IMG/VR virus record: IMGVR_UViG_3300042392_001626
Span: 1-37,237 of that record
DNA: 37,237 bases
Direction: 5' to 3' (one strand)
Source: a virus
Under the pieces are notes generated by a model. That model saw only the letters and a list, made by a program, of their open reading frames with translations. It did no database searches and was not told where the DNA came from. Each line of letters starts with the position of its first letter. Positions within the stretch are counted from its first letter, which is position 1. Below are positions 1,806 to 20,547 of this stretch, piece after piece. The translations under genes and the position numbers were made by a program.

Positions 1806-3458
1806 TTAGGCTTCACACGTACTGCATGTTAAGATTGAACGAGCAAGTTCTTGAGCAGGGTTTGCACTACGCTGATAATATAGTCCTTTTATACCTTGTT
1901 CCCAAGCAAAGATCATAAGCTCATTGACGTCCTTTGGCTTTGCCTTAGGGGATATCATTAAATTTAGACTTTGTCCTTGATCAATAAACTTTTGACGTTG
2001 CGCAGCTTGAATGATAATTTCTTTTTGAGAAATTTCACCGAATGTCTTAAACACTTCTTTTTCTGCGTCACTCAAACAATCAAGATGTTGAACACTGCCG
2101 CCACGCACAAGTATATCTTTCCACGTCTCTGCAGTGTCTTGACCCTTTTCTTTGAGCAGTTTAATGAGATATGGATTTTTGTAGGTAAATTTACCCTTAG
2201 CAAGATCCTTTACAAAATAGTTGCTATTCAGTGGCTCAATACTAGGACTGACTTGACCCAAGATAAATGAGCTGCTTGTAGTAGGAGCAATTGCAAGTGT
2301 AGTAGTATTGCGACGACCATAACCCTTTAACAGCTCAGGTTCACCATACTGCTTAGCAAGTTCTGTTGTGGCGGCGTCACACCGATCACGCATCGTACTA
2401 AAGATTTCTGCATTCTTAAATTTCGCATCAATACTCTCAAAGCCAATCATAAGAGACTGCAAATAGCTGTGCCAACCAAGTACGCCAATACCAAGTGCTC
2501 GTTGATTCATTGCAAATCTACGAGGAGCATCCATAAACTTGATGCCTTCAGTCTTGTCAATAAACTCAGTCATGACTGCGTCTAAGAAATATACAAGTGT
2601 CTCTACAGCATCAGTCTGAGACAACTCATCCCACTTTTCAAGATTTAATGAAGACAGGTTGCACACAAAGCTTTCATCGGCATCAGTAGACAGATAGATT
2701 TCGTTGCAAAGGTTTGACGCATAGATTTTCTTCTTCTTGTCCTTATAGACTTGCGGCGCGTCGTTGTTTGCATTGTCAGTGAAGAAAAGATATGGATAAC
2801 CAGACTCAAAACGTTTTTTAATGACTGCACCCCATGTTTTACGTTTGTCTTTGTCGCCTTCAATCATGCTGCGCATCCATTCATTTGACACACACACGCC
2901 GATCGAAAGATCTTGAATGGCATTGCCTTCACCGCGAATGCCAAGAAACTCATGTATGTCTCCGTGATCGATCGGCAGATATGCCGCAAAACTGCCACGA
3001 CGAACATTACCTTGAGACACATAGTTTACTGTTGAGTTAAACACAGTAAGTTGATGATGCACGCCAGTTGCGGTTCCGCCGCTACTAATTTCAGAACCAC
3101 GAGGACGTATGTCTCCAAAGTATGCTGACGTTCCACCGCCGAGTTTTGACATCATAGCGACTTCACTTATCTTGCCAAAAATGTCTTCCATTTGATCTGG
3201 AATATAACTGCCAAAGCAAGAGATTGGCAGGCCGCGTGATCGACCAAAATTACTCCAAATCGGACTGGACAGTGAATAATATCCAGCATGCATATAAGAT
3301 TCAAATTTGTCTGCCCATCCAGAGATGCCTAAAAGCTTTTCAGCACTTTCAGCAATGTCGCGTATGCGTTGTTCTGGAGTTTCTCCTTCAAGTAGATAAC
3401 CTCTTTTTAAGAAACTTCTGCTATCTTTATTAAGCCAATCAATGTGTTTATTTTCCAT
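1806..3458 (-). CDS. nrdA: Ribonucleotide reductase large subunit, class I (NrdA)
   Basis: The 550-residue alpha subunit reduces ribonucleotides to deoxyribonucleotides for phage DNA synthesis. Catalytic residues are visible: Cys81 in LPISCFGSY, Asn249-Cys251-Glu253 in SNLCNEI, and Cys266 in FVCNLSSLNL, equivalent to E. coli C225, N437/C439/E441 and C462. The C-terminus carries the redox pair TCSTCEA that passes electrons from thioredoxin. The protein starts almost directly in the catalytic region and is about 200 residues shorter than T4 or E. coli NrdA, so it lacks the N-terminal ATP-cone and should lack overall-activity control by dATP. The partner nrdB lies upstream, separated by an antisense HNH gene. 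A thioredoxin gene is near 36.5 kb. Confidence 0.95.
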   Translation of the reverse strand: MENKHIDWLNKDSRSFLKRGYLLEGETPEQRIRDIAESAEKLLGISGWADKFESYMHAGYYSLSSPIWSNFGRSRGLPISCFGSYIPDQMEDIFGKISEVAMMSKLGGGTSAYFGDIRPRGSEISSGGTATGVHHQLTVFNSTVNYVSQGNVRRGSFAAYLPIDHGDIHEFLGIRGEGNAIQDLSIGVCVSNEWMRSMIEGDKDKRKTWGAVIKKRFESGYPYLFFTDNANNDAPQVYKDKKKKIYASNLCNEIYLSTDADESFVCNLSSLNLEKWDELSQTDAVETLVYFLDAVMTEFIDKTEGIKFMDAPRRFAMNQRALGIGVLGWHSYLQSLMIGFESIDAKFKNAEIFSTMRDRCDAATTELAKQYGEPELLKGYGRRNTTTLAIAPTTSSSFILGQVSPSIEPLNSNYFVKDLAKGKFTYKNPYLIKLLKEKGQDTAETWKDILVRGGSVQHLDCLSDAEKEVFKTFGEISQKEIIIQAAQRQKFIDQGQSLNLMISPKAKPKDVNELMIFAWEQGIKGLYYQRSANPAQELARSILTCSTCEA

Positions 3459-3491: not shown

Positions 3492-3499
3492 TATAAATA
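3492..3499 (+). promoter_or_regulatory. Late promoter box for the plus-strand HNH gene
   Basis: TATAAATA on the plus strand, 62 bases before the HNH ATG at 3562. The leader contains a possible hairpin, GTCGGT (3505-3510) with ACCGAC (3529-3534). Both plus-strand homing genes in the window have this box upstream, which makes chance less likely. Confidence 0.55.
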
Positions 3500-3561
3500 A
3501 TATTGTCGGTCACGATACGGGAATATCTACCGACTCTATTCAATCCTAACTTAAAGAATCT

Positions 3562-4179
3562 ATGAACAGCTATAAAACTATATATAATAATCTTGTTCGC
3601 TCTCGTCAACATTTGAAAAAAGAGTGGAAGCCAATTGGAAGCGGTCTTGAACGACATCGTATTATTCCACAACATCAAGGTGGAACATATGAAGAAAATA
3701 ATTGTACATATTTGACTCATAGAGAACACATTATTGCTCATTGGTTATTATGGAAAATTAATCGACACATCGGCGATTTATATGCTTACAGGTACATGCG
3801 TGGAATAGCAATTTATCCTATGTTGGGTAAATTTCATTCTGAAGAAACTAGAAAAAAGATGAGTGAATCGCATAAAGGAAAAATTATGTCTGCTGAACAT
3901 CGTCATAATATTAGTAAGTCTGGAAAAGATCGCAACGCATGGAATAAAGGAAAATATGGTTTTCTTAAACATACTGAAGAAACAAAGCAAAAAATTGGAG
4001 AGTGCAGTAGTAAAAATAGAATGGGAATCGTTTTTTCAGAAGAACATTGTCATAATTTAAGCTTAGCAGCAAAGAAAAGAAAAAGAAAACCACTTTCTGA
4101 AGAAACTAAGCAAAAAATTGCAAAATCATTAAAAGACAAAAAACATACTATAAAGAGAAAGTGGAAAAATAAAATTTAA
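3562..4179 (+). CDS. HNH homing endonuclease between nrdA and nrdB
   Basis: 205 residues on the opposite strand to nearly everything else. The HNH core is HRIIP (residues 32-36), Asn47, then THREHIIAH with His56 and His60. The rest is about five NUMOD3-type repeats (SEETRKKMSESHKGK and variants), used for DNA contact in homing enzymes. Its tail overlaps the nrdB stop codon by four bases. T4 carries mobE, also an HNH gene, between nrdA and nrdB, so this intergenic site is a recurrent homing target. It is related to the HNH gene at 19146-19961 over the core. A late-type promoter lies upstream on its own strand. Confidence 0.85.
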   Translation: MNSYKTIYNNLVRSRQHLKKEWKPIGSGLERHRIIPQHQGGTYEENNCTYLTHREHIIAHWLLWKINRHIGDLYAYRYMRGIAIYPMLGKFHSEETRKKMSESHKGKIMSAEHRHNISKSGKDRNAWNKGKYGFLKHTEETKQKIGECSSKNRMGIVFSEEHCHNLSLAAKKRKRKPLSEETKQKIAKSLKDKKHTIKRKWKNKI

Positions 4180-5168
4180 AACAAATCGTCTTCGCTGAAA
4201 CTTTGATTTTTCTTGCTGTATTCTACTGGACGGCTGTGGAAAAAGTCAGTCATATTATTACCATGTAGCTGCTCATCAAACCACAGCGTGTCTTTTAAGA
4301 GTTCGCTGTCAACTTCAAATGGAACCTTAAATCCAATTGCTGTCATACTTTCGTTAATACGAGACTTGATAAACTCTTTTAAAATTGGAGCAGACAACCC
4401 TTTTTCATCAATACCGTTGACCATCCAGTCAATAATCTTTGCTTCTGCTTTCCATGCCTCGTGTGCTTCGCTTGCAATCTTTTCTTCAAGTTCGGCATCA
4501 AATAATTCAGGATGCTCTTCACGAATAGTATTGATAATCTTTATGCCAACCAACGCGTGAATGTTTTCTTCGTTGCGAGTATACTTTACTTGCTGATCAG
4601 TGTCCTTTAAAACATTCTTAAAGGTAGAAAACCAGTTAATGACATAAAACTGAGAAAAGAGAGAAACGTTTTCTACAAAGAGTGTGAACAGGATGAGCGC
4701 ATAGAGATATTGTTTTTTGCTATCTTTATAAAATCTATGTGTATACTTTTTAAGATACTTAACACGACCTTGAATCCATTCAAGTTTTAAATTTTCTTCA
4801 AACACATCTTCAAGTTCAAGCACTGAAAGCAAACGCTCATAGGCGTTGTTATGAATGACCTCAACGTTAGCCATAACATAACCCAAATCTTGCAAGGATG
4901 GGTGTGGCAGATTTTCACCAAGTTTTGCCCAAAAGGTTTTTACAGCAACTTCAATTTGACCAATTGCTGATAGAGTACGAACTATAATTTCTCGTTCTTG
5001 CTCTGTTAATTCTGTTTTAAATTGATGAACGTCTGAACTAAAGCTAAATTCTTTGTCTGTCCAAAAGCCATTGTGCATGGCTTCAATAAATTGTTCTGTC
5101 CAGGGATAGTAATTTGGTTTGCGACTAATTTGTTCTTCGAAGATGCTGTGTGTTGTTTGAATACTCAT
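4176..5168 (-). CDS. nrdB: Ribonucleotide reductase small subunit, class Ia-like (NrdB)
   Basis: The 330-residue beta subunit holds the di-iron tyrosyl radical that starts catalysis in NrdA. Probable ligands, by alignment with E. coli NrdB, are Glu73 (QIEVAVKTFW), Glu103 and His106 (VEVIHNNAY), Glu166 (FVENVSLF), and Glu201 and His204 (EENIHA). The radical Tyr110 sits seven residues after Glu103, as in E. coli. The first ligand appears to be Glu rather than the E. coli Asp84. The C-terminal tail ends FSEDDLF, suitable for docking into NrdA. The ATG at 5168 follows an early-type promoter at 5206-5235 with a leader of about 36 bases. Confidence 0.95.
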   Translation of the reverse strand: MSIQTTHSIFEEQISRKPNYYPWTEQFIEAMHNGFWTDKEFSFSSDVHQFKTELTEQEREIIVRTLSAIGQIEVAVKTFWAKLGENLPHPSLQDLGYVMANVEVIHNNAYERLLSVLELEDVFEENLKLEWIQGRVKYLKKYTHRFYKDSKKQYLYALILFTLFVENVSLFSQFYVINWFSTFKNVLKDTDQQVKYTRNEENIHALVGIKIINTIREEHPELFDAELEEKIASEAHEAWKAEAKIIDWMVNGIDEKGLSAPILKEFIKSRINESMTAIGFKVPFEVDSELLKDTLWFDEQLHGNNMTDFFHSRPVEYSKKNQSFSEDDLF

Positions 5169-5205
5169 GTTTGAAATTTAAGTGATGCTGATTGAATGTT
5201 TGTAT

Positions 5206-5235
5206 ATTATACACTATAAACCAAAATATGTAAAT
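5206..5235 (-). promoter_or_regulatory. Early-type promoter of nrdB
   Basis: Minus strand: ATTTAC (5235-5230), 18 bases, TATAAT (5211-5206). It lies just upstream of nrdB, and readthrough would also reach nrdA if not blocked by the antisense HNH gene. Confidence 0.75.
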
Positions 5236-5269
5236 AATTTTTACATATTTATTCCATATCGCTTTTCAC

Positions 5270-5587
5270 TTAAGTTACCAATTCTGTTTCGTTGGAAAGC
5301 ACCTCTTCATTCATAGCACGTTTACGAATACTACGAAGAGCGCCAGTAGAGCTATCACGCAATATTACGGTATGACTTCTATTTTTTCGTGCATAATCAT
5401 AGAGATTCTGCTGTTCAGCGTCAGAAGTGTCGAGATATTTGCTCCAACGTTCAAACTTATTTCTACCAGTTTCAAATCGCCTAAATATGTCGGTTGGCAC
5501 ATTAAACAATCTCCAAGTTGCTCCAGACTTTGGATAGTCTGACGGTGGCATCGCTACGTCTCCAGTAGTTACTTCTTCATTTTTCAT
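5270..5587 (-). CDS. Conserved phage protein, function unknown
   Basis: 105 residues, mostly polar. The central part (RRFETGRNKFERWSKYLDTS ... NLYDYARKNRSHTVILRDSS) looks like a compact conserved domain that I associate with T4-like phages, without a known role. Its start overlaps the end of the next gene upstream by four bases (ATGA), so the two are probably translated as a pair. The short gap on its 3' side leads to the nrdB promoter, so this is the last gene of the late block. Confidence 0.7.
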   Translation of the reverse strand: MKNEEVTTGDVAMPPSDYPKSGATWRLFNVPTDIFRRFETGRNKFERWSKYLDTSDAEQQNLYDYARKNRSHTVILRDSSTGALRSIRKRAMNEEVLSNETELVT

Positions 5588-6168
5588 TGGATAATATCGT
5601 GTTGAGTTATTAATATTTTTTGAGCAGTGTTATGATGATATGCTTCATAGACATTTATTCCAAATATCTTTCCGCATGGGCGCGCATCTTCCTTTATAGA
5701 AATCTTTGATTTGCGAAGCGCCAAAGTTTCTCCAGTAGAAGGCAACGAGATATCGCGAAGCAACGAATATGTTCCACTTCGAAGAGAGCAGTCTTCATTG
5801 ACGTACCAGCATGACTCTTCTAGTTGTAGTTGACGAGGATCAAGTCCCGTAGTCTCCTTAATAATTTTAGAAAGTGCTCGGTCAGACACTCCATATTTTT
5901 CCTTGATTAGATAGAGCGCGGCTAGATATGAAGCGATAGTTGTCTTGCCGAATGGAATGACATTAAGCATTCGCTTTACATTAAACACAAGTTTATGAAA
6001 AATGTTGTATTTACTTTTTTCTTCAGACGTTTCTGGCTTTCTTATAACTTTACCATTGGCATCGATTAAACCCAATTTATACGCTCCCGTTTTTGTCCAT
6101 GGAGTCGTCAATAGACGTAAAAATCTAAATGCATATACAGTATCGGCAGTGCGTGTTAGGAGTCCCAT
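5584..6168 (-). CDS. Conserved T4-like phage protein, possibly structural
   Basis: 194 residues. The N-terminal half has a helical, basic stretch (TADTVYAFRFLRLLTTPW, then KLVFNVKRMLNVIPFGKT) with a hydrophobic AALYLI segment. It resembles a protein often found in marine T4-like phages near virion genes. No catalytic motif is visible. A TATAAATA box at 6217-6224 lies 48 bases upstream, consistent with late expression. Confidence 0.65.
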   Translation of the reverse strand: MGLLTRTADTVYAFRFLRLLTTPWTKTGAYKLGLIDANGKVIRKPETSEEKSKYNIFHKLVFNVKRMLNVIPFGKTTIASYLAALYLIKEKYGVSDRALSKIIKETTGLDPRQLQLEESCWYVNEDCSLRSGTYSLLRDISLPSTGETLALRKSKISIKEDARPCGKIFGINVYEAYHHNTAQKILITQHDIIQ

Positions 6169-6172
6169 ATTT

Positions 6173-6541
6173 TTAAAGTCTTTGAAGTGTTCGAGCTACA
6201 TACAGATCAATAGGTATATTTATATATTCTCCTTCTGGAATATAATTTAGATAGAGCAAAAACGTTTTTAATGCTGGCCAACTATACTCATTAACACGAT
6301 AAAAACACATGCGTGTTGCGGCCTCTGGATAAAACATATTATGAAATATAATGATATGATTAAGAATCAAACGTTCTTGTAAAATTTTTTTATCGTTATA
6401 TTTCTTAAATAGCTTTTTGATATACTTTAGATGAGAAAGATCAGCTTCAAATTCTTTTATGTCTAAACAACGAGGGTTGTTATAGTGCTTTGCCGCGTAT
6501 ATCAAAAAGTTTTTGTCGTTTAACTCATGTACTAACTGCAT
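6173..6541 (-). CDS. Conserved phage protein, function unknown
   Basis: 122 residues, largely alpha-helical in appearance, starting MQLVHELNDKNFLIYAAKHY. Features include KYIKKLFKKY, ERLILNHIIIFHN and a WPALKTFLLYLNYIP segment. I recognise the general pattern from T4-like phages but know no function. It lies between a virion-type gene and a putative capsid-internal gene on the same strand. Its codon use resembles its neighbours. Confidence 0.65.
   Translation of the reverse strand: MQLVHELNDKNFLIYAAKHYNNPRCLDIKEFEADLSHLKYIKKLFKKYNDKKILQERLILNHIIIFHNMFYPEAATRMCFYRVNEYSWPALKTFLLYLNYIPEGEYINIPIDLYVARTLQRL
6217..6224 (-). promoter_or_regulatory. TATAAATA late-promoter-like box
   Basis: Inside the 3' end of the gene at 6173-6541, placed to drive the gene starting at 6168 with a leader of about 40 bases. 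Confidence 0.4.
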
Positions 6542-6561
6542 AATATAATTTATATCGCAAT

Positions 6562-6876
6562 TTATTTCGACAATAAATCAGTCACAGTCTGCCCCTTTTC
6601 CCAAAACTTACAACTCCAATAGCGAGCCTTCCACTTTGGCCCAGGATCTGTATCACACTGATGGCGAGCTCTAAAACTTTTTAGACGCTCTGGATCATCA
6701 CGCTTAATTTCTGCCTTTGGATCACCAAATCCAAGTTTTATAACATTGCCTTTTTCATTGCGAACATAGACATAAAACTTATGCTTTTCATCGTCGCTGC
6801 GAAACGGCTCGTTGAGAGTCACCTTGCGACCATCATATTCTGCATGCTCAGAGATATATTCTTTAAACCGCATCAT
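6562..6876 (-). CDS. Small virion-type protein with capsid-targeting-like N-terminus
   Basis: 104 residues starting MMRFKEYISE, which fits the T4 capsid-targeting pattern ending in I/L-x-E where the prohead protease cuts. The rest holds a conserved pattern, KLGFGDPKAEIKRDDPERL followed by FRARHQCDTDPGPKWKARYW and SCKFW, with two Cys and several His that could bind metal. I associate this family with T4-like marine phages; its role is unknown. Packaging in the capsid is inferred from the N-terminus and from similar N-termini on several neighbours. Confidence 0.7.
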   Translation of the reverse strand: MMRFKEYISEHAEYDGRKVTLNEPFRSDDEKHKFYVYVRNEKGNVIKLGFGDPKAEIKRDDPERLKSFRARHQCDTDPGPKWKARYWSCKFWEKGQTVTDLLSK

Positions 6877-6882
6877 AGCATA

Positions 6883-8187
6883 TTAACGTGATATTTCTTC
6901 CCAGTCTAGAGATGCATGAATTTGTGCTGGATTACCACCTGAGGCAGTGCTTGCGGAAATTACCAGTGTTAATTCATTTGGAACTCCACTTAAACCATTG
7001 CGTTCAAGTTGAAATTTAAATAGCGCTTCTTTTAAAATATCAAGGGAAGGTTTGCTCTGAGTTGTAGAGCTCATATAACCAGATGCCAATATTCTTCCAC
7101 CGGTAATTGCACTAGCATCCATCTTATATTCTACAGCTGAATCTGCCGATGCTGGCTGCCAAAGTCCACTTCCACCAGTAGTTGCGCCTCCTGAAACTAC
7201 TTTCCATTTATAGTTAGTTGTTGATACAGGTAATATTGAAAGAGCAGTAAGAATTACAACTGCATCCAGTTTTGTAGATTTTAATCTCATTGTAAGTATT
7301 GGATAATCAGTGCCCGCAGCAGTTATTAAATTATATGGAGCATTAATTGCAGTGCCTATGCTTTGTTGCGCTCCATATAGTTGATATCCACCTTCTGAAA
7401 TTACTGTAGAGCATATTTGCTTAAGAGTACTTGTACTGCCAGTGTTAGAGGCATTTTCGATTTCGTATCGCAATGGCAGTGAAGCAGTAGTTATGTATGT
7501 AGAAGCAATTATATTAGCATGATGAAATGTATGGCATACAACAAATTTTCCATTAATTACAAAACCAACTCGAACGCTGCCAACTCCCAACCATTCAAAA
7601 TCCATCCATAAAATTTGTGCTTTAGAAATATCGAGAGTAAAGCCAGATGAACCGGTTCCATTTAATAATTTATCACCATTCCACTGTGATTGTGGTATCT
7701 TGATATTTTGCAAAGATCCATTTACAATTGTGCGTTTTACTATATTTAAAGTCGTGCCATCAAGTTCAAAATAGATGCCATTATCGGCACCATAATATCC
7801 TACACGTTGCACTAATCCTGCTTTTGCAGATGACATTACAAATGTATTGAGAACTAGCAATGATTTTCCAGGTTGATATGAAAAAACCTTCGTCGTTTCT
7901 CGCTTTACAGATGAGCCAGACAGTGCAGTAACACTACAATCAATTAGACCTTGGTTTGCATTAAATGTTGCTGTACCGCTACCAGCTACACCAGTACTCC
8001 AAAGACCATTATCAGCAAATCTATGACTAGAATCAAATAGAGTAAGCGGCGATGATGTACGCAGTCGGCCAAATGCGTCACCTGCAGTTTCAGACTGCAA
8101 TATTGATTGACTAGTTGAAACACTACTAGCATCAAGAAAGTCTTCTATCTTACGAGACAGCGTATAATTTTTAGTGTAGTGCGGCAT
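6883..8187 (-). CDS. Virion structural protein
   Basis: 434 residues rich in Ser, Thr, Gly and Ala with alternating hydrophobic residues, the composition of beta-rich virion proteins. Near residues 36-60 the pattern GDAFGRLRTSSPLTLFDSSH recurs in structural proteins of cyanophages and related T4-like phages. No signal peptide or enzyme motif is seen. It ends with NPAQIHASLDWEEISR. It lies within the late block, so a surface or tail-fibre-associated role is likely but not proven. Confidence 0.75.
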   Translation of the reverse strand: MPHYTKNYTLSRKIEDFLDASSVSTSQSILQSETAGDAFGRLRTSSPLTLFDSSHRFADNGLWSTGVAGSGTATFNANQGLIDCSVTALSGSSVKRETTKVFSYQPGKSLLVLNTFVMSSAKAGLVQRVGYYGADNGIYFELDGTTLNIVKRTIVNGSLQNIKIPQSQWNGDKLLNGTGSSGFTLDISKAQILWMDFEWLGVGSVRVGFVINGKFVVCHTFHHANIIASTYITTASLPLRYEIENASNTGSTSTLKQICSTVISEGGYQLYGAQQSIGTAINAPYNLITAAGTDYPILTMRLKSTKLDAVVILTALSILPVSTTNYKWKVVSGGATTGGSGLWQPASADSAVEYKMDASAITGGRILASGYMSSTTQSKPSLDILKEALFKFQLERNGLSGVPNELTLVISASTASGGNPAQIHASLDWEEISR

Positions 8188-17924: not shown

Positions 17925-19094
17925 CTATACGTTTATGCCACTAAAGTCTCGGGGTTTGCGACCTGCGCTAAATGGAGTGTTTACTACGGGAGAGCTGTCT
18001 GTGTCGTTTGTGATGTTTGCCATTGGATCAGAGATATCATAGAGTCTCATCTTTGAGAGATCGATGCCAATTGTGAAACGTTTGTTTGTGGTTGGGTCAT
18101 TATATCGATTTTTGAGTTGCTTGACCATGATTTGATTCATCTTGTCGAGCTGTTCTGTGCGTATAAATGCAACCATCATGTCAGCAGTCGCAGGCAAACC
18201 AAAGCTCTCGCTTGTGTCTGTAATCTCAACGTCACTGCTATTAAATCCACCACGAGTAATTTGAGTCGCACTCCATATAGGCACGTTAAATTCAACTGCC
18301 AATCCACGAAGTTCTTCAGCAATGCTCTTGATCAAACTATAGGTATTGATGCTGCCACCAAGTCCTTTCATACGACTGCTTGCGCAGATATTTAAGTAGT
18401 CAACATAGATAATGTCTGGCTCAAACTTTTTCTTGAGTTTTAGTTCAAGAAGTAGTGCTCTAAAGTGTCCGACATGAGCAGCTGCAGTAGGATATTCTTT
18501 TACAATAAGTTTGCCATGAGTACGTTGACTTATAGCTCCTACTTTTGATTGAAACTCTTTTTGAGTCAAGTCTTTTAGCTTGTCAATCTTTATGTCAAGT
18601 AGGTTTGCATCGATACGTTCTGCGATGCGCTCTTCTGCCATTTCAAGTGTGATATAAAGAACATTTCGTCCTTGAGCAAGAGCAGCTGCTGCCATATGGC
18701 ACATGCCAAGACTCTTACCGCAACCAGTATTATGAGAAGAAACCCCATTAGTATAATAACGGTGATTTTCATGATCAACAGTAATATCTACAATCGGTAT
18801 TTTATTTCCTGTTTTTGTAACTATACCAATTTGATAGTCATCTTCAGTTAAATATTCTTGTTTTTTATGAACCAAATCTTTAGCATATTTCCAACCATCA
18901 ATGGTTTCAAATAAATGATTTTCATTAACTCTAATAATTTTTCCATTATTAAGCAATAAAACATATTCATCCCACATTCCTTTATCAACAAATGCTGACA
19001 CTGGAACATATCCATCTGGAGAATGCACTTCTATTGAATAACCTTCATTTAAAAGTGTTTCGATTTCTTTAATTGCAATAACTTTTTCTGTCAT
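17925..19094 (-). CDS. C-intein plus C-terminal half of gp41-type replicative helicase
   Basis: 389 residues. Residues 1-122 are a C-intein and 123-389 are the C-terminal helicase extein. The extein begins TGCGKS, the second half of Walker A. It continues with the catalytic-Glu strand (LYITLEMAEER), Walker B IIYVDYLNI and the RecA-fold Gln/Arg region (SATQITRGGF, VKQLKNRYND), as in DnaB-family 5'-3' replicative helicases such as T4 gp41. Alone it lacks the first Gly-x of the P-loop and the N-terminal oligomerisation region, so it should be inactive until spliced to the product of 19891-20547. No clear Shine-Dalgarno site. How this half is transcribed is not evident. Confidence 0.93.
   Translation of the reverse strand: MTEKVIAIKEIETLLNEGYSIEVHSPDGYVPVSAFVDKGMWDEYVLLLNNGKIIRVNENHLFETIDGWKYAKDLVHKKQEYLTEDDYQIGIVTKTGNKIPIVDITVDHENHRYYTNGVSSHNTGCGKSLGMCHMAAAALAQGRNVLYITLEMAEERIAERIDANLLDIKIDKLKDLTQKEFQSKVGAISQRTHGKLIVKEYPTAAAHVGHFRALLLELKLKKKFEPDIIYVDYLNICASSRMKGLGGSINTYSLIKSIAEELRGLAVEFNVPIWSATQITRGGFNSSDVEITDTSESFGLPATADMMVAFIRTEQLDKMNQIMVKQLKNRYNDPTTNKRFTIGIDLSKMRLYDISDPMANITNDTDSSPVVNTPFSAGRKPRDFSGINV
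18729..19094 (-). other. Split intein, C-terminal fragment (122 residues)
   Basis: Starts MTEKVIAIKEIETLLNEGYS. It contains a block-B motif NENHLF (NxxH), a block-F strand IVDITVDHENHRYYTNG, and the C-terminal VSSHN with penultimate His and terminal Asn. The next residue is Thr (+1 nucleophile). This fragment holds nearly the whole Hint fold except the first strands, so it is far longer than a classical C-intein (~35 residues). No endonuclease domain lies inside it. Confidence 0.93.
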
Positions 19095-19108
19095 AAAATG
19101 TAAGTTTT

Positions 19109-19116
19109 TATAAATA
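19109..19116 (+). promoter_or_regulatory. Late promoter box for the intein-associated HNH gene
   Basis: TATAAATA on the plus strand, 29 bases before the ATG at 19146. It fits late expression of the homing gene from its own promoter, against the direction of the helicase. Confidence 0.55.
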
Positions 19117-19145
19117 TAATATTAGCAGGAACAGGATATAGTCTT

Positions 19146-19961
19146 ATGAAATTTTACTCTCAAATTTATTATAAACTTTGTAATGAAAATGTAAATAATA
19201 AAATTCATTATTGTAAAGGATCAAATATACATAAACATCATATTATTCCGCGTCATGCGGGTGGAGGAGACGACGAAAGCAATTTTACTTATCTTAGCAT
19301 TAGACAACACATAATTGCTCATTTTTTGTTATGGAAAATGCATGGAATGGTTAACGATTTGCGATCAATGCAGATGTTAGGAGCAAAGTTAACGTATGAA
19401 CAAAGGAGTATTGTTGGCAAATGGTGTTATGAAAATAAGATAGGAATGTTTTCATTTAGTAAAGAAAAAAAGGCAGAAATTTCACGACGAAATGGTAAAA
19501 TGGCAAAAGAAAAGAAAACTGGTATTCATAAGCCAGAAAATTTTTCAAAATTTGCTTCGCTTGGAGGAAAAGCTTCGATAATTTCTTCTAATAATCCATG
19601 GGCATATTGGGCTACGCCTGAAGGTAGATCAACACGAGCAAAGTTGGGTGGAAAATCACATCTCGGAAAATTATGGATCCATAAAGATGATGTCATAACA
19701 CGTTGTCTATATAGTGAAATTAACGAAAAAATGGATAATGGATGGAAATATGGAATGAAAGATGGAGGAAGAGAATATGTGAATAATGGAGAAAAAACAT
19801 TTCGAGTTGAGTCAGATAAAATATTTGACTTATTATTGCGAGGTTGGAAATTGGGAAAAGCGCTTAATTATAAACCAGATCGTAAACGTTCTAAGTATGA
19901 ACTTTCTTATGCAGCCTTACTCGAATTTGAGTGTCAGGATGAACACAACCAGCGAGAATAA
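19146..19961 (+). CDS. HNH homing endonuclease between the helicase halves
   Basis: 271 residues, plus strand. The HNH core is HHIIP (31-35), Asn46, and SIRQHIIAH with His55 and His59, followed by FLLWK. It is related to the HNH gene at 3562-4179, which has HRIIP ... HREHIIAHWLLWK. The C-terminal part has a NUMOD-like region (SKFASLGGKASI, RSTRAKLGGKSHLG) in place of the repeats of the other copy, so target recognition likely differs. Its last 71 bases are antisense to the N-intein and the end of the helicase N-half. It is the likely agent that spreads the whole fractured cassette. Confidence 0.87.
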   Translation: MKFYSQIYYKLCNENVNNKIHYCKGSNIHKHHIIPRHAGGGDDESNFTYLSIRQHIIAHFLLWKMHGMVNDLRSMQMLGAKLTYEQRSIVGKWCYENKIGMFSFSKEKKAEISRRNGKMAKEKKTGIHKPENFSKFASLGGKASIISSNNPWAYWATPEGRSTRAKLGGKSHLGKLWIHKDDVITRCLYSEINEKMDNGWKYGMKDGGREYVNNGEKTFRVESDKIFDLLLRGWKLGKALNYKPDRKRSKYELSYAALLEFECQDEHNQRE

Positions 19962-20547
19962 TGTTTAGTGTCTTTCGTGGAATGCCACCGCCAGTAATGA
20001 CGTTAAACATTTCAAGGTCGAATGGAATCTTGTCTTCTGTCTTGTGATAAAATTCATAGCGACCGTCGACATTTTCAAGATAGTCATGACCAACATTCGT
20101 ATCAAACGAAACGCTAAGTGCTTTGCTGAGTATACTCGGAATCGCACCTTCTGCCTTGTCTGCTGATTTTCCGTCTATTATAGAAATAGATTCCATAATA
20201 GCAAGATGAACTGCTCGATCTTTACACCATTTTTCTGTGTTGTCTAGCAGCCATTCACTCTCTACAGCGAGAGGTGATTGCAAGCTTTGTATATGAGCAA
20301 GCGCCTCTGGCGCTTTTTGATGTCGTATCTCATCTGAGCCTTGAAACTCAATAGCAAGTGCTGTAGAGTTTGGAAGCTTATTATATTTTGTAATAAACTT
20401 TAAGATGCAGTCATAGACTAACCGACTCTCACCTTCAAAATATTCTGGCTTTAGATGTGGTAATGCTTTGCGACAAAAGTTTTCATTGTGAATAAGATTG
20501 TTAATTATAATGTTTTCAAGATTGCTCTCCATGTGGCTTTGTTTCAA
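19891..20547 (-). CDS. N-terminal half of gp41-type replicative helicase plus N-intein
   Basis: 218 residues. Residues 1-200 form the N-terminal collar and the beginning of the RecA core, ending TLNIILAG, the lead into Walker A. Residues 201-218 are the N-intein, followed by a stop. Together with the 267-residue C-extein the spliced product would be 467 residues, close to T4 gp41 (475). The start at 20547 overlaps the upstream gene. The internal Met6 (MESNLENI) at 20532 is an equally good start. No P-loop is present in this half, so it cannot bind ATP by itself. Confidence 0.92.
   Translation of the reverse strand: MKQSHMESNLENIIINNLIHNENFCRKALPHLKPEYFEGESRLVYDCILKFITKYNKLPNSTALAIEFQGSDEIRHQKAPEALAHIQSLQSPLAVESEWLLDNTEKWCKDRAVHLAIMESISIIDGKSADKAEGAIPSILSKALSVSFDTNVGHDYLENVDGRYEFYHKTEDKIPFDLEMFNVITGGGIPRKTLNIILAGCVHPDTQIRVRLHKKVHT
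19894..19947 (-). other. Split intein, N-terminal fragment (18 residues)
   Basis: CVHPDTQIRVRLHKKVHT, starting with the catalytic Cys1 and matching intein block A (C-x-x-x-DT-x-I). It ends at TAG. Natural N-inteins are usually near 100 residues. Only a few atypically split inteins (AceL-TerL, VidaL) have fragments this short. Its coding bases are also the antisense of the HNH 3' end. Confidence 0.9.

Follow-up and report, generated by a model that had tools for sequence, protein, structure and literature searches.

A likely mobile split-intein cassette in the ATP-binding loop of a phage replicative helicase gene

How can a phage replicative helicase work when its gene is broken through the ATP-binding loop? 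The question is raised by a 37,237-nucleotide (nt) stretch of viral DNA (positions 1 to 37,237 of IMG/VR record IMGVR_UViG_3300042392_001626; hereafter the window, meaning this whole stretch), in which the gene for a gp41/DnaB-type helicase consists of two separate reading frames, both on the minus strand. The locus very probably carries a mobile split-intein cassette in the phage replicative helicase gene (gp41), the two polypeptides being rejoined by trans-splicing. The parts of the gene, with lengths in amino acids (aa), are:

20532-19891, minus strand: N-half, from ATG 20532 to stop 19891 (reading frame; the open reading frame (ORF) list starts it at TTG 20547).
19094-17925, minus strand: C-half, from ATG 19094 to stop 17925 (reading frame).
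19948-20532, minus strand: N-extein, gp41/DnaB-type replicative helicase, 195 aa, ending ...TLNIILAG (ORF; PHROG 19 columns 156-361, E 1e-40).
19891-19947, minus strand: N-intein (IntN), 18 aa, CVHPDTQIRVRLHKKVHT, and a stop (reading frame; residues 1-14 conserved in 93 loci).
18729-19094, minus strand: C-intein (IntC), 122 aa, with NENH (block B), NHRYY (block F) and SSHN (block G) (alignment, conservation and the HINT fold of a contiguous relative).
17925-18728, minus strand: C-extein, 267 aa, stop included, starting with TGCGKS, the second part of Walker A, followed by the rest of the RecA-like helicase domain (Pfam DnaB_C, E 2e-16; PHROG 19 columns 362-588, E 2e-75).

The initial annotation described an N-half ending ILAG with an 18-residue N-intein that starts with Cys and runs into a stop, and a C-half made of a 122-residue C-intein ending SSHN before TGCGKS. 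The reading frames are as it described them, the terminal residues of IntC being NHRYYTNGVSSHN. Its figure of 467 residues for the joined helicase is correct when counted from TTG 20547, which gives an N-extein of 200 aa; from ATG 20532 the joined exteins amount to 462 aa. The N-half and the C-extein match adjoining columns of PHROG 19 (DnaB-like replicative helicase), therefore no part of the helicase is missing between them. The profile thus covers both exteins, which on joining yield an intact Walker A (AGTGCGKS), as had been claimed, and in 69 intein-free relatives the same exteins abut to the base. At the level of sequence, these alignments confirm ILAG/TGCGKS (the slash marking the insertion point) as a real helicase junction and not a chance one.

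Is the intein itself intact? A search of IMG/VR found 349 stretches that encode relatives of the window IntC. With identical copies removed, about 99 distinct loci share the intein at this helicase codon. A long gap separates the halves in 77 of them and a short gap in 8; a further 8 are contiguous, and in 6 the N side was not placed, being mostly off the contig. This bears out both the split intein and its insertion in Walker A. Across the 85 split loci, IntN is 14-21 aa long and always followed by its stop codon. Cys1 (93/93) and Thr+1 (100/100) are invariant, and the IntN pattern CVHP-[EDN]-T-x-[VI]-x-[IV]-[RK] is almost so. Block F reads NHRYY in 98 of 100 rows, block B reads N-x-x-H and every complete row ends [SE]SHN, so that the residues of a Class 1 intein are all present (Cys1, block B His, block F, C-terminal His-Asn and Thr+1). 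No relative of the C-intein was found among 84,980 bacterial species genomes. In tblastn searches of isolated phages (best 30 and 60 matches), IntC led to UvsX and TerL host genes, and the full C-half to gp41 without this intein.

The fold was modeled with AlphaFold for a contiguous relative near the window's clade, L095, whose IntC is 86% identical (predicted local distance difference test 95, predicted template modeling score 0.85). The listed PDB matches are inteins or intein-like HINT domains, the best being VidaL (E 7e-12, template modeling score 0.87, 28% identity by fold). VidaL (6vgv) is also the closest solved structure by sequence (phmmer E 2.3e-10, over residues 5-140 of the contiguous L034). 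In the L095 model, a turn after strand β2 joins the strands at residues 7-12 and 16-21, and the natural break lies in that turn, at the position known as S1 from VidaL and PolB16 (PMC13014065); atypically split inteins have an IntN of 15-37 aa (PMC13014065). With two polypeptides, an 18-aa IntN, a modeled S1 break and whole-domain homology to VidaL, the window intein appears to be atypically split and of VidaL (S1) type.

The initial annotation had placed the break near the very start, as found here, and had likened it to AceL-TerL and VidaL. The comparison with VidaL is right, VidaL being likewise split at S1, though its host is UvsX, not gp41; AceL-TerL breaks at S2. In contigs fetched with the VidaL sequence, the junctions read VFAGESG/CLPKEAVVQIRLTKKG, followed by a stop, and SHN/SGKS. 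Like the window intein, VidaL (6vgv/6vgw) is a Class 1 intein with Cys1, an ultra-short IntN (16 aa vs 18), an S1 break and homology over the full length, and it too interrupts a Walker A motif in a T4-like gene for replication/recombination. It differs in its site (GESG/SGKS of UvsX vs AG/TGCGKS of gp41) and +1 residue (Ser vs Thr), and no HNH-endonuclease relative was detected in VidaL loci, whereas the window has one antisense in its gap. The Lake Vida/VidaL contigs carry the UvsX intein, and their sole helicase match is distant and intein-free. AceL-TerL, GOS-TerL and PolB16 OarG share the short IntN (15-37 aa; PMC13014065) but are found in different host genes; in AceL/GOS-TerL the break is at S2, following helix 1, and PolB16 is cysteine-less. 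Since VidaL lies in the UvsX P-loop, gp41 is a second P-loop gene with an intein of VidaL type, and the mode of splitting is already known from VidaL. A Lake Vida intein was reportedly named ‘T4Lh-1’ by Neugebauer in 2017. If this name means T4-like helicase, an intein at this helicase site may have been described before, which lowers the claim to novelty.

Among isolates, Pseudomonas phage PA5oct and its relatives have an S1 split (N-half MTKPFD...GESG/CLPETAKVKIRLSKKQS, followed by a stop) and a 127-aa IntC 34% identical to that of the window, but the host is UvsX, and the 477-aa ORF that separates the halves shares their orientation and has no Pfam match. In cultured PA5oct (L250, NC_071039.1, 754-3760), UvsX is split by this VidaL-type intein, with a very short IntN, around the 477-aa ORF, and the record lists electrospray ionization tandem mass spectrometry (ESI-MS/MS) evidence for the UvsX C-half product. 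With VidaL and PA5oct in UvsX and the present family in gp41, kindred S1-split inteins occupy the P-loops of at least two T4-like genes.

What lies between the halves, and could it move the intein? The gap holds three features:

19146-19961, plus strand, antisense to the helicase: HNH-type homing endonuclease gene, 271 aa (PHROG 655, E 1.9e-16).
19109-19116, plus strand: TATAAATA, T4-type late promoter element of the endonuclease gene (enriched in the window; recurs in gaps).
19113-19136, plus strand: operator-like copy of the empty insertion site, AATATAATATTAGCAGGAACAGGA, 24 nt, read N I I L A G T G (overlaps the late promoter TATAAATA).

At its 3′ end the endonuclease gene overlaps the entire IntN together with 14 nt of N-extein sequence. 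That an endonuclease would separate the halves had been anticipated, and relatives of this one lie antisense in the gap of most long-gap loci (in sense orientation in L008). TATAAATA or a close variant occurs in most gap regions of split loci; across the window it is found at 12 sites where 3.35 are expected, an enrichment that fits late promoters of T4 type in this phage. When the window is compared with L001 in steps of 60 nt, the cassette of IntN, endonuclease and IntC is 89-100% identical and both exteins are 62-88% identical, with a sharp change at the junctions; the synonymous distance is 0 for IntN, 0.19 for IntC and saturated for the exteins. A cassette so much more alike than its flanks, with the change at the junctions, marks recent horizontal transfer (homing) of the whole cassette, which has moved between already diverged helicases.

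Why should an endonuclease gene be preceded by a copy of an insertion site? Directly before it, AATATAATATTAGCAGGAACAGGA reads as the uninterrupted site NIILAG/TG. Against the host's own junction it matches at 7/8, 8/8 and 0/8 of codon positions 1, 2 and 3 (15/24 nt overall, 15/16 at positions 1 and 2); this score of 15 compares with 12 for the best other 8-codon window of the same helicase (412 windows). Over the 69 empty sites, matches are 76, 88 and 21% at the three positions. The pattern exceeds shuffles (p ≤ 0.015) in 35 of 68 distinct leaders, with pooled matches of 201, 247 and 23 of 280 at positions 1, 2 and 3. Of the 35 leaders assigned to the pattern class, 20 have the junction as their single best window, as do none of the 33 others; since that class is partly defined by the pattern, the window clade is the fair test, and there the junction is the best window in all six leaders.

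Intron endonucleases of T4 have homing-site-like operators over their promoters, and repression has been shown for I-TevI (PMC2988022). As with I-TevI, whose operator overlaps a late promoter upstream of the endonuclease (PMC2988022), the window has a sequence resembling the presumed homing site over the endonuclease promoter. I-TevI is a GIY-YIG endonuclease in a group I intron and the window enzyme an HNH endonuclease in a split intein, in which the likeness is limited to codon positions 1 and 2. By this analogy AATATAATATTAGCAGGAACAGGA probably serves as a putative autorepression operator; this is the simplest reading, the alternative being a fossil of helicase coding sequence. Chance likeness, arising from the late promoter together with a purine-rich ribosome-binding sequence (AGGAACAGGA), is an unlikely origin. 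With a purine as third base, the core LAGTG codons GCN GGN ACN GGN do look like a Shine-Dalgarno sequence, the leaders of one clade share ancestry and half of the leaders are without a copy. Yet the match in the window clade extends over 8 codons (NIILAGTG) and is equaled by no other window of the same helicase, mismatches sit at third positions (the 23 matches against 201 and 247 above), and other lineages keep the copy with pyrimidine wobble bases, in a form that is no ribosome-binding sequence (L148, AACGTTATATTGGCAGGGACCGGT; L232, AATATTGATATAGCCGGTACAGGG; L140, TTAGCCGGTACAGGC).

Taken as a cassette that splices and homes, the locus would work as follows. Two polypeptides would be made, the N-extein with the 18-aa IntN and the 122-aa IntC with the C-extein, and IntN would dock on IntC as the first strands of the HINT fold. 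Cys1 would attack at ILAG/C, the chain would pass to Thr+1 and Asn122 would cyclize; ILAG would thereby be joined to TGCGKS, restoring Walker A in a 462-aa helicase that would be switched on only by trans-splicing. A contiguous intein would have been broken in the β2-β3 turn (S1), the place now taken by the antisense HNH endonuclease gene. This enzyme is expected to recognize the empty site (N-I-I-L-A-G/T-G codons) in intein-free helicases, where repair would then insert the entire cassette. Once a gene is invaded its site is interrupted, but the wobble-diverged copy overlaps the endonuclease's own late promoter and probably acts as an autorepression operator.

Need the halves be spliced at all? 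Phage genes that are split by endonucleases and work as separate polypeptides are documented (PMC2988022), and these halves might likewise assemble non-covalently, as does the mobE-split NrdA of phage Aeh1, or the gene might simply be decaying. Both ideas are very improbable: non-covalent assembly needs no intein, yet catalytic residues are invariant over about 100 loci and the ratio of non-synonymous to synonymous substitution (dN/dS) of IntC is about 0.1; the break runs through the ATP-binding loop itself; contiguous versions of the same intein exist; and decay would not give 77 split loci with both halves present. It is hardly credible that the halves are joined at the RNA level, although phage homing endonucleases often lie in group I introns, or that the break is an assembly error, given that no Rfam intron match in the window was obtained (RNA-level splicing being rejected on this count), that numerous independent contigs show this same break, with gaps of 445-1998 nt and differing relative frames, and that the IntN stop is present in all split loci while eight loci have the intein in one frame.

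Some observations do weigh against trans-splicing and homing as set out above. No clear Shine-Dalgarno sequence precedes the C-half ATG (19095-19145 upstream, minus strand). The endonuclease matches Pfam HNH at E 0.0014 and 19.2 bits, under the family cut-off of 21.4. The operator copy is found in about half of the distinct leaders, the remainder having a hairpin leader or neither, and as leaders share descent they do not count as independent trials. With its 113 columns, the short tree is compatible with contiguous forms that are ancestral or re-fused. The leader upstream of the C-half ATG (19095-19145) is taken up by the antisense late promoter and the site copy.

Two near sister pairs, L095/L094 and L146/L149 (IntC DNA 90-96% identical), each have one contiguous member and one split with a long gap; for L095 and L094 the IntC DNA is 96% identical. 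The differences apparently record natural splitting or re-fusion events. By parsimony, 6 changes are required to place the contiguous loci, at least 3 of them by starred branches, and the linker DNA of L095 and L146 is compatible with re-fusion or a relic.

The initial annotation had also set the locus apart from typical gp41 splits, and this contrast is upheld. Canonical gp41-1-type split inteins (‘fractured genes’) share a split intein in gp41 and an endonuclease gene separating the halves, but combine a long N-intein with a short C-intein at a downstream site, TRSG[FY]/SSDV (or TSE/SFGLP), and not at the P-loop; the window intein has an 18-aa IntN, a 122-aa IntC (vs about 35 aa) and the P-loop site. 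Both kinds coexist within one gp41 gene in L003, L034, L116, L121, L126 and L206. The second intein is at TSE/SFGLP in L003 and L126 and at the gp41-1 site in L116 and L206; in L034 and L121 a contiguous P-loop intein accompanies a gp41-1-type N-intein. Together with the split P-loop intein, the second one in L003, L116, L126 and L206 apparently divides gp41 into three polypeptides, of which the middle one has parts of an intein at either end; only in L003 was the third piece read. L003 (about 3522-7765) has a further ORF between gp41 pieces two and three.

A second HNH/NUMOD3 homing endonuclease is encoded in the window at 3562-4179 (plus strand), antisense between nrdA (1806-3458) and nrdB (4176-5168), a gap that corresponds to the intergenic position of mobE in T4. 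At 3492-3541 (plus strand), before this gene, a TATAAATA late promoter is followed by a hairpin (3505-3538: GUCGGU-CAC-GAUA-CGGGAA-UAUC-U-ACCGAC-UCUA). The fetched loci contain 97 distinct leaders of this hairpin type, preceding HNH and also GIY-YIG-looking endonuclease genes. Stem 1 is fully paired in 83 of 88 distinct cores, and two of its pairs occur as AU, CG, GC and UA. An Rfam search of the hairpin leader and the window matched no family. The hairpin has the look of a regulatory leader common to homing endonucleases of lake phages.

Three things go beyond a specialist's expectation: how large the family is, how recently the cassette has homed, and the operator-like copy. The initial annotation had noted neither the homing nor this copy, nor the close contiguous relatives and three-piece helicases. 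In the family of about 99 loci, one codon is found empty, with a contiguous intein, and split with or without the endonuclease, which makes it possible to trace directly how a protein becomes split and whether this can be undone; the family also offers dozens of natural N-inteins of 14-21 residues, a size wanted for protein chemistry. The endonuclease is tied to splitting, and the operator-like copy suggests how it may restrain itself inside an essential gene. The evidence leans slightly toward an endonuclease that maintains a codon-phased version of the empty homing site across its own late promoter, reads codon positions 1 and 2 (the coding constraint of the P-loop), ignores wobble and represses itself, an I-TevI-style operator evolved in a split-intein system, with a second split intein possible in the same gene to give a three-polypeptide helicase. 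If this is true, wobble-blind recognition would let the endonuclease home into helicases with saturated synonymous divergence, while repressing itself.
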